64,000 nt of DNA from Actinomycetota bacterium (lineage in GTDB: Bacteria > Actinomycetota > CADDZG01 > WHSQ01), in the NCBI GenBank assembly GCA_030446465.1, contig JAUJNI010000003.1, forward strand, positions 379,334-443,333, written 5' to 3'. The position numbers and the translations under genes are program-made. Positions 14,813-17,162 of this stretch are shown here, one piece after another; position 1 is the stretch's first letter; each line of letters starts with the position of its first letter. The notes under the pieces are model-generated. The model was not told the DNA's origin. It saw only the letters and a list, made by a program, of their open reading frames with translations, and searched no databases.

Positions 14813-15607
14813 GTGAAGCAGTCGGAATCGCTGGTGTTCGACCGAGCGGCAGAGTTCTACGACCGCACGAGGGCATTGTCCGAGAAGGCTCTGGCCCACG
14901 TGGTCCGGACGGTCTCCGCCGAATTGGCCGGCAGAGGGCCGTGCCTGGAGGTCGGTATCGGCACCGGCCGGATTGCCGTTCCCCTCGCTCACGCCGGGGC
15001 GGAGCTGATGGGAATCGACCTGTCCCGCCCCATGCTCGCCAAGCTAGTTGAAAAGGCCGGCTCGAAGATACGCATCCCCGTAGTGCAGGGCGATGCAACC
15101 GCCCTGCCGTTCGCGCCCAACTCCTTTGGCGCCGCGCTGGGTGTTCACATCCTTCATCTCATCCCGGACTGGGACCTTGCCGTCCGGGAGCTGTTGGAGG
15201 TCGTCCGCCCGGGTGGCGTCATTCTTGTGGATGTGGGTGCATCGGGAGAGGGTCCAGGAAGGGAGATCCAGGACTACTTCTCGGCCCAGGCAGGGGTTCC
15301 GGCCCGCCATCGAGGAGCAAACGAACCCGCGGAGGTGGACGACTTGATGACCTCCCTGGGCCTCGGAGTGCGTGAGCTGGAACCCATCACAGAGAGCCAC
15401 CACACCACCCACGAAGAAACGATCGCCCGCCTCGAAGCGGGCATCTTCTCGTTCACCTGGGCGGCCTCAGAGGAAGACAGGGCCCGGGCAGGTGCCGCAA
15501 CCAGGTCCTGGGCTGAGGATCGCTTCGGCCCCCTCGACCAGACCTACAGCTACGAAACGACGATCGCCTACCGCGCCTACGATCTCCCAATGACCCGTTC
15601 TTTCTGA
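14813..15607 (+). CDS. Class I SAM-dependent methyltransferase
   Basis: A 264-residue methyltransferase of the UbiE/methyltransferase type 11 group. SAM-binding motif I is CLEVGIGTGRIAVPLA (about 43-58), followed by GIDLSRPML, GDATALPFAPNSFGAAL and the post-II motif VVRPGGVILVDVG. The substrate cannot be told from sequence. The GTG start at 14813 is used. Its 3' end forms part of a long inverted repeat (15598-15644) and faces the convergent SnoaL-like gene. Confidence 0.82.
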   Translation: MKQSESLVFDRAAEFYDRTRALSEKALAHVVRTVSAELAGRGPCLEVGIGTGRIAVPLAHAGAELMGIDLSRPMLAKLVEKAGSKIRIPVVQGDATALPFAPNSFGAALGVHILHLIPDWDLAVRELLEVVRPGGVILVDVGASGEGPGREIQDYFSAQAGVPARHRGANEPAEVDDLMTSLGLGVRELEPITESHHTTHEETIARLEAGIFSFTWAASEEDRARAGAATRSWAEDRFGPLDQTYSYETTIAYRAYDLPMTRSF

Positions 15608-15644
15608 GCGCACCCCCTCCAGAGGTGGCCATTCTCAGAAAGAA
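15598..15644. terminator. Bidirectional terminator-like inverted repeat, copy 1
   Basis: Arms TTCTTTCTGAG (15598-15608) and CTCAGAAAGAA (15634-15644) form a perfect 11-bp stem around a 25-nt loop. It lies between convergent genes and each arm supplies the last codons and stop of one of them. There is no T tract, so termination in the classic intrinsic manner is uncertain. A close copy lies at 17108-17153. Confidence 0.55.
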
Positions 15645-16018
15645 GGGGCGGGAGGCTTCATGTACCACTCGGTGAAGTGGGAGCACCTCCCTGATGTATG
15701 GAAGCGCATGACGAAACAGTTGTCGTAGACCTGGTCGACCGATCCATCGGCGGCCAGATAGGTGCTTCTACCCGTGGCCACAGCGATGTCGCCGTCGATT
15801 GCGATCGGTTGGTAGCTGCCGTCGTAGGTGCCCGGCGGATCGGGGTTTTCGAGCCAGCTTGCAGCTATCGCTTCGTTGCCCCGAACCGGGTCTTCGTCAT
15901 ACGGGTGATACCGATATTCGGCGTCGTCGCTAAACAGCTCCGCAATCTGCTCTTGGTCATAGCTCTTCCACGCGCCAACGTAACGATCAAGCCAGCCTGC
16001 TACCTGCGCTCTGTCCAT
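15635..16018 (-). CDS. SnoaL-like / nuclear transport factor 2-like protein
   Basis: A 127-residue protein of the NTF2-like (SnoaL) fold, seen in WLDRYVGAWKSYDQEQIAELFSDDAEYRYHPYDEDPVRGNEAI-type sequence and the closing beta-strand FVMRFHTSGRCSHFTEWY. Such proteins are small enzymes or ligand-binding domains. The ATG at 16018 is preferred over a far longer in-frame form because AAAGGAG stands just upstream and the family starts here. Ligand and role unknown. Confidence 0.8.
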   Translation of the reverse strand: MDRAQVAGWLDRYVGAWKSYDQEQIAELFSDDAEYRYHPYDEDPVRGNEAIAASWLENPDPPGTYDGSYQPIAIDGDIAVATGRSTYLAADGSVDQVYDNCFVMRFHTSGRCSHFTEWYMKPPAPSF

Positions 16019-16062: not shown

Positions 16063-16221
16063 CTAGACGGCACCTTTGATTGCCCCTACCAGATGCGTGA
16101 CGGTGCGCAGCGCCCGCGACCTCTTGGGGGCCAGTTGGCGCGCTCTGCGCTCGCCTTGGGCCCTCGAGTAGAGGTCGGCAAGGCGCTGCTGTACGAGCTC
16201 TTGCGTCATGAGCGGATACAT
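16063..16221 (-). CDS. Small basic protein (52 residues)
   Basis: An open frame MYPLMTQELVQQRLADL... ending GAIKGAV, with many Arg/Lys residues in the middle (GERRARQLAPKRSR). An AGGAAAGGGA ribosome site precedes the ATG at 16221. The ATG at codon 5 is an alternative start. Codon use is like neighbouring genes. Short proteins with this MxPxMxxxLxxxR start recur in actinobacteria as I recall, but no function is known. It lies between the SnoaL-like gene and another tiny gene, all on the minus strand. Confidence 0.6.
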   Translation of the reverse strand: MYPLMTQELVQQRLADLYSRAQGERRARQLAPKRSRALRTVTHLVGAIKGAV

Positions 16222-16232
16222 CCCTTTCCTCC

Positions 16233-16352
16233 TTAGTTCCTCTGGTGGTCGATCCAGTCATTGCCGTCGCGGCTGTCGACTCCAAAGATCCCGACAAGGG
16301 CGCCGGCAACGGCGAGAACGGCCACTACTGCGGCGAATCCGAGAACCTCCAC
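16233..16352 (-). CDS. Single-pass small membrane protein (39 residues)
   Basis: GTG start at 16352 with GAAGGAGG directly upstream. The product has one hydrophobic helix (LGFAAVVAVLAVAGALVGIF, residues 4-23) and a polar tail ending DWIDHQRN. It is the first gene of the minus-strand group (this gene, the 52-residue gene, the SnoaL-like gene) that is divergent from the CGNR gene and faces the tandem operator at 16371-16450. Function unknown. Confidence 0.6.
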   Translation of the reverse strand: MEVLGFAAVVAVLAVAGALVGIFGVDSRDGNDWIDHQRN

Positions 16353-16370: not shown

Positions 16371-16450
16371 CTCTTACCAGCAAAAACCGTTTTGCTAGTA
16401 GCAACGTAGCATCAAGCCTCTTACCAGTCAAGAGCGTTTTGGTGGTACCA
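16371..16450. promoter_or_regulatory. Tandem operator-like repeats between CGNR gene and the divergent small genes
   Basis: Two 33-bp direct repeats (16371-16403 and 16418-16450), each starting CTCTTACCAG and containing CGTTTTG, lie 47 bp apart. Each repeat has internal dyad symmetry: TACCAG..CAAAA against TTTTG..TAGTA in copy 1, and TACCAG..CAA against TTTTGGTGGTA in copy 2. The second copy covers TACCAT (16446-16451), a -10 box 6 nt before the CGNR start codon. The layout suggests autorepression by the CGNR protein and joint control of the divergent genes. Confidence 0.6.
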
Positions 16451-16457
16451 TCCTCGG

Positions 16458-17117
16458 ATGGCAACGCAGGAGGAAATCGCCGTTATCCATGAGACGAGCC
16501 TGCACGGAGGCCACCTGGCCCTCGACTTCGTGAACACGGTCGATTGGCGTCTGGGCCCGGAGCGGCGGGATCTATTGCCCGACTACGAGGTCCTCGTTCA
16601 CTGGGGCCACCGGTTGGGCGTCATCACCGATCAGGAGCTCCCCCGGTTCCTTGGAGACGCCGAAAGCCACCCGCGCAAGTGCGGGCAGGCGCTCGAGGAG
16701 GCGCTCGACCTTAGGGAGGCGCTTTATCGCATCTTCGCGGCCGCGGCCGATGGTGGGATGCCCCGGCCCCGCGACCTGCGGGCCCTCAAGGCCGCCTTCG
16801 CGGACGCGGTCGCCCACGCTTCGCTCGTGGCCTCAGAAGACGGCTTCACGTGGAGCTGGAGCGGCAGCGAGCCCTGGCATCGCGTTCGGTGGGTCGTCGC
16901 CTCGGCCGCCGTGGACCTGCTGTCCACCGGCGAGCTCGTGCGCGTGAAGCAGTGCCGGGACGAAGGCTGTGGATGGGTATTCCTCGACATAAGCAAGAAC
17001 GTCAGCCGCCGCTGGTGCAGCATGCAGGGGTGTGGGGCCCGGGCAAAGATGCGCCGCCAGTACCGGCGCAAGAAGGCCCAGGGCGAGAGCTTGGCCCCTC
17101 GGGGACCTTCTTGCTGA
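16458..17117 (+). CDS. CGNR zinc-finger / ABATE-domain transcription regulator
   Basis: A 219-residue protein. The N-terminal ABATE domain opens with GGHLALDFVNTVDWR (about 17-31); the C-terminal CGNR-type zinc finger has CRDEGCGWVFLD, then RRWCSMQGCGARAKMRRQYRRKK. The usual CGNR signature reads CGAR here. The zinc finger and basic tail suggest DNA binding. The ATG at 16458 has no ribosome site but stands 6 nt after TACCAT, so the mRNA is probably leaderless. A tandem dyad repeat covers this promoter. Such proteins are usually described as stress-responsive regulators; targets unknown. Confidence 0.82.
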   Translation: MATQEEIAVIHETSLHGGHLALDFVNTVDWRLGPERRDLLPDYEVLVHWGHRLGVITDQELPRFLGDAESHPRKCGQALEEALDLREALYRIFAAAADGGMPRPRDLRALKAAFADAVAHASLVASEDGFTWSWSGSEPWHRVRWVVASAAVDLLSTGELVRVKQCRDEGCGWVFLDISKNVSRRWCSMQGCGARAKMRRQYRRKKAQGESLAPRGPSC

Positions 17118-17153
17118 GCCGAACCCTTCCGAGGTGGCGGTTCTCAGAAAGAA
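17108..17153. terminator. Bidirectional terminator-like inverted repeat, copy 2
   Basis: Arms TTCTTGCTGAG (17108-17118) and CTCAGAAAGAA (17143-17153) pair with one mismatch; an inner GAACC/GGTTC stem is also possible. The element is clearly related to the one at 15598-15644, sharing a GAGGTGGC core and the right arm followed by a GGCGGG-type run. It lies between convergent CGNR and purE genes. No T tract is present. Confidence 0.5.
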
Positions 17154-17162
17154 CGGCGGGGG

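Follow-up and report, generated by a model that had tools for sequence, protein, structure and literature searches.

The window analyzed here, a 64-kb stretch of an actinomycetotal genome of 2.76 Mb, contains the only CGNR gene of that genome. It lies divergently to two short ORFs and a gene for a SnoaL-like protein, and two predicted operators, O1 and O2, are located in the intergenic region (Table 1).

Table 1. Genes and predicted regulatory elements at the CGNR locus (positions in the window).
Feature	Position	Strand	Description
Third divergent gene, SnoaL_2-like protein	15635..16018	-	127 aa; Pfam match
ORF52, second divergent ORF	16063..16221	-	52 aa; no Pfam match
ORF39, first divergent ORF	16233..16352	-	39 aa; GTG start; AAGGAGGG upstream; one hydrophobic segment; ends FGVDSRDGNDWIDHQRN
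Operator O1 (predicted)	16375..16400		TACCAGCAAAAACCGTTTTGCTAGTA = TACCAGCAAAA-ACCG-TTTTGCTAGTA; arms match 10/11
Predicted -10 of divergent promoter, TACGTT	16403..16408	-	17 bp from -35; 2 bp from O1
Operator O2 (predicted)	16422..16447		TACCAGTCAAGAGCGTTTTGGTGGTA = TACCAGTCAAG-AGCG-TTTTGGTGGTA; arms match 7/11
Predicted -35 of divergent promoter, TTGACT	16426..16431	-	Within left half of O2
Predicted extended -10 of leaderless CGNR gene, TGGTACCAT	16443..16451	+	6 nt to ATG
ABATE-CGNR zinc-finger regulator	16458..17117	+	219 aa; literal motif CGAR (A194)

The encoded protein consists of an ABATE domain (PF07336, E 2e-25, residues 18-157) and a zf-CGNR domain (PF11706, E 2e-17, 63.1 bits against a curated cut-off of 24). 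Its signature reads CGAR in place of CGNR. The second-last position of this motif also varies in other members of the family, where S, T, V or A is found, and the Pfam model does not require the literal motif that gave the family its name. Since Jann_2411, the protein of the type structure, itself reads CQNR, membership cannot hinge on the literal motif. The zinc-binding cysteines of the treble clef (C166, C171, C187 and C192) were invariant across 40 sequences. A PDB sequence search with the window protein gave no match, and a fold search was needed. The AlphaFold2 model (pLDDT 93) was compared with the PDB by Foldseek, which returned 3H0N (Jann_2411) as the sole significant match (E 1.1e-5, probability 1.00, TM 0.58/0.67). 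In the model, M189, A194 and K197 fall on a predicted helix formed by residues 189-207.

In the protein tree, the nearest relatives of the window protein come from Chloroflexota (L048 and L057), and its own family gave weak matches only. Phylogenetic footprinting inside that family was ruled out, because orthologues in the same family and class are only ~31-44% identical and mostly partial matches. Transfer may have brought the SnoaL-ORF52-ORF39-CGNR cassette into this genome. The whole cassette is flanked by near-identical elements of ~55 bp (15597-15652 and 17107-17161; TTCTTTCTGAG...GAGGTGGC..TTCTCAGAAAGAA), each of which forms a hairpin. In the genome, their core is restricted to these two places and one copy with two mismatches (C4:286962), which likewise directly follows a stop codon. 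The elements represent either boundaries of the cassette or a small family of terminator-like elements.

The two operators are contained in a direct repeat, the copies of which (16371-16412 and 16418-16459) are 42 nt long, 74% identical and 47 bp apart, start to start. The symmetric core of each copy is a 26-bp dyad, and the O1 and O2 cores share 20 of 26 positions; as a dyad, O2 is poor. The paired repeats with internal dyads 47 bp apart, described earlier in a sequence-only reading of this DNA, were thus confirmed. No second pair of similar dyads, 26-79 bp apart, was found across the 64-kb window. A motif trained on Bacillota sites alone and then applied blind ranked O1 and O2 as the first and second sites of the window. 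With a general motif, from the building of which the window was left out, they scored 26.7 and 23.7 bits, while the next best site in the window reached 9.7 bits. In the complete 2.76-Mb genome, a strict pattern matched only O1 and O2 without mismatches, and a relaxed pattern added one weak site (C1:84184). By sequence, such a small number of sites would fit a local regulon.

The position of the dyads relative to promoter-like boxes was then determined. The sequence TACCAT (16446-16451) is placed six bases 5′ of the ATG at 16458, before which neither a Shine-Dalgarno sequence nor another in-frame start codon was found. The CGNR gene is therefore predicted to be leaderless, with the transcript starting at the start codon. 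The right end of O2, TGGTA, is at the same time the beginning of the extended -10, and the same overlap was found in locus L003 and in the Micromonospora loci L113-L126. On the opposite strand, the left half of O2 holds the -35 of the predicted divergent promoter, and the divergent transcript is predicted to start in the region that O1 covers. By sequence, O2 thus lies over both promoters and O1 next to the divergent -10. This layout rules out an assignment of O1 to the divergent gene only and of O2 to the CGNR gene only. The second repeat was said earlier to cover TACCAT; the 26-bp core of O2 reaches only the first two bases of this box. One correction concerns the first repeat, which was said to face the divergent gene; the divergent ORF is present, but the -35 of its predicted promoter is located in O2, not in O1.

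In relatives that are 40-44% identical, the same dyad was recognized by eye. For a systematic analysis, genome contigs were scanned with an alignment of six proteins, which gave a set of 80 named loci. The motif trained on Bacillota sites alone (AACCATCTAAAnnnnTTTAGATGGTT) was applied blind to the other loci. In 56 of 71, the highest-scoring site of the entire locus (3.7-6.6 kb) was located upstream of the CGNR gene at a distance of no more than 260 bp, as against 3.1 expected by length. Column-permuted motifs, which keep the composition, landed upstream in 15 of these loci on average and in 38 at most. After dereplication at 60% protein identity, the respective numbers were 47 of 59 loci, with 3.1 expected, and a mean of 19 and a maximum of 35 for permuted motifs. 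The real motif surpassed all 300 column permutations. Among the 12 dereplicated loci with a best match elsewhere, some have a shifted or 25-bp spacing. In all of three plasmid loci that had not entered motif building, the best match again stood upstream of the gene; the one on a Deinococcus plasmid (L146), next to a divergently oriented MFS gene, reads TACCTTCAAACTGAAATTTGAAGGTA. A general consensus of WACCnnynAAA-N4-TTTnrnnGGTW emerged, and the motif accompanies CGNR genes in at least nine phyla and in varied neighbourhoods. The expectation that related CGNR genes carry similar repeats upstream thus held for most of them, in many phyla.

Two variants of the operator were observed. In another CGNR branch (L006, L009, L014 and L015), a 25-bp dyad, ACCA-N15-TGGT, is one bp shorter than that of the window and often occurs in tandem. 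Rhizobial CGNR genes (L079, L090, L091, L094, L095, L098, L101, L111, L112, L147 and L148) have an AACG..TAAA..TTTA..CGTT operator, usually as a single site and often beside an EamA transporter gene.

The occurrence of the motif outside CGNR loci was assayed in 20 whole genomes (~120 Mb), picked for carrying such loci. Each of the six exact matches was found beside a CGNR gene, as were 13 of the 17 sites with no more than one mismatch; similar repeats are thus scarce elsewhere in these genomes. A reversed control pattern gave 12 matches as compared with the 17 near-exact real ones, so the location and not the number of near-exact matches is informative. The exact pattern WACCNNCNAAANNNNTTTNGNNGGTW had no match in 397 Actinomycetota genomes, nor had its control. 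This pattern is too strict, as O1 itself ends in TAGTA.

The promoter geometry is conserved as well. Fifteen dereplicated loci, the window counted, have sites 43-50 bp apart, and in 11 of them a divergent promoter of the form TTGAC(A/T)-N17-TAnnnT is embedded in the pair; its -35 lies at O2+3/4, and 0-3 bp separate its -10 from O1. By chance, such an arrangement would arise at a rate of 2/3050 per locus. These fixed offsets indicate that the tandem spacing of 47-49 bp is locked to a promoter. The 11 loci belong to seven phyla, namely Actinomycetota (the window), Chloroflexota, Bacillota, Atribacterota, Thermomicrobiota, Pseudomonadota and Gemmatimonadota, the last two represented by metagenome genomes. 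The divergent boxes are near consensus, and TTGACA-N17-TATAAT was found in several loci.

By mechanical calling, 81 candidate divergent ORFs were obtained at CGNR loci. Among them, 16 matched MFS_1 and 15 EamA, and further matches were to MFS_3, AzlC, ABC, MacB/FtsX, DinB_2 and acetyltransferases; the unmatched remainder includes some non-genes. As the divergent partners are often MFS or EamA transporters, many CGNR proteins look, from these neighbourhoods, like local regulators of transporters. The window differs in its partner, which is an operon of two small ORFs and the SnoaL-like protein. A 48-aa divergent ORF with YGYDSRDG at the Chloroflexota locus L057 resembles ORF39, with which it shares DSRDG. 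ORFs weakly similar to ORF52 are present beside CGNR genes in L057, L065 and L078, and no convincing counterpart of ORF52 was found in close relatives. These ORFs are short, and their likeness is suggestive. In each of two phyla, a CGNR gene has as its divergent neighbour a tiny membrane-type ORF with (F/Y)G(V/Y)DSRDG, which belongs to no Pfam family.

Residues of the zinc finger were compared with operator bases in 49 representatives. The strongest links were those of W+11 (K/R) and W+3 (M/other) with half-site position 4 (C/G); W+12 and W+8 were linked to position 1. The rhizobial and mycobacterial groups, which have R, have AACG or AATG operators. Mapped on an ABATE-domain tree, K and R replace each other about four times; only one pair is well supported, and the direction is consistent with co-variation. 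This co-variation is suggestive, a lead rather than a proof. W+11 appears to be equivalent to Lys177 of Jann_2411, a conserved residue that was proposed to bind nucleic acid (PMC2954205). A possible reading is that the helix after the second cysteine pair contacts the outer triplet of the 26-bp dyad. Met at W+3 and Lys at W+11 would go with ACC, other residues and Arg with ACG or ATG, and W+8, the N of CGNR, would pair with the first operator base. We consider it an even chance that ABATE-CGNR proteins share such a sequence-readable recognition code together with an ancestral double operator that encloses a divergent promoter, has the divergent -35 inside one operator and is kept in at least seven phyla.

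Taken together, these data make it quite probable that a dimer of the ABATE-CGNR protein binds O1 and O2 and acts as a repressor at its own promoter and on the divergent operon. Each dyad comprises two WACCnnynAAA half-sites and would be occupied by one dimer of the protein encoded at this locus. The ACC triplets are ~21 bp, or two helical turns, apart, a distance that would suit a dimer placing one zinc finger on each half-site. When both operators are occupied, O2 would block the divergent -35 together with the extended -10 in front of the CGNR gene, and O1 would block the start region of the divergent transcript; in this state the protein would repress its own gene as well as the divergent operon. 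Release would come from a signal that the ABATE domain presumably senses. Autoregulation by the CGNR protein, suggested earlier from the window sequence, is supported as the best reading by the comparison across loci.

The same dyads could serve a CGNR protein that activates the divergent operon, or that represses itself and activates its neighbour, and tandem sites at a fixed spacing around a divergent promoter would also suit this arrangement. We regard it as unlikely, because in 11 of 15 loci O2 lies over the divergent -35 and O1 over the start region, and because boxes so near consensus need no activator. Much less probable still is that the dyads are bound by a different regulator of CGNR genes, such as a TetR or MarR protein whose gene lies elsewhere. 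The dyad form alone would suit many dimeric regulators, but the motif follows CGNR genes through at least nine phyla and varied surroundings and hardly occurs at other places in the genomes examined, and changes in its bases go with changes in zinc-finger residues. The least probable explanation, which we consider close to negligible, is that the repeats are A+T-rich promoter DNA that arose by chance or composition and has no regulator. Upstream regions are indeed richer in A+T than genes, and intergenic A+T-richness alone suffices to bring shuffled motifs there in about one-third of the loci. Against this stand the excess of the real motif over every permutation, the single occurrence of such a pair in the window, and the constant distance to promoter boxes in seven phyla.

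CGNR zinc-finger proteins are widespread in bacteria, and the paired sites are a concrete candidate for what this uncharacterised family recognises. A search of the open literature revealed no operator, target or ligand for the family; queries with family names and operator strings returned only the 2009 structure paper as relevant, the rest being unrelated. The predicted operator suggests that many CGNR proteins act locally on transporter genes, MFS and EamA among them. Together with the promoter geometry and the candidate specificity residues, it would allow targets of the family to be listed genome by genome and tested.

The PDB search gave one structure, 3H0N, solved without DNA. Its authors proposed that Jann_2411 is a stress-related DNA-binding regulator and reported that it is likely a dimer, and the paper names neither an operator nor a target gene and describes no binding test (PMC2954205). 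The dyad symmetry of O1 and O2 fits a dimer. The window protein resembles Jann_2411 in having both domains, the four zinc cysteines and the matching fold; its signature reads CGAR instead of CGNR, and it differs in the second cysteine pair, which is C-x4-C in the window protein and C-x3-C in Jann_2411. The locus as a whole is similar to those of local autorepressors of the TetR/MarR type, in which the gene of a small regulator stands opposite a transporter gene or another small operon, with paired dyads in the short stretch between them and few sites in the genome. In contrast to these, the CGNR regulator has another fold, that of a treble-clef zinc finger, and the 47-bp tandem encloses the divergent promoter, the -35 of which is inside one operator. 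In the case of leaderless extended -10 promoters, where TANNNT lies a few bases before ATG, the likeness consists in the position of TGGTACCAT before the start codon with no Shine-Dalgarno sequence, whereas here, as in L003 and the Micromonospora loci, TGGTA doubles as the outer part of an operator half-site.
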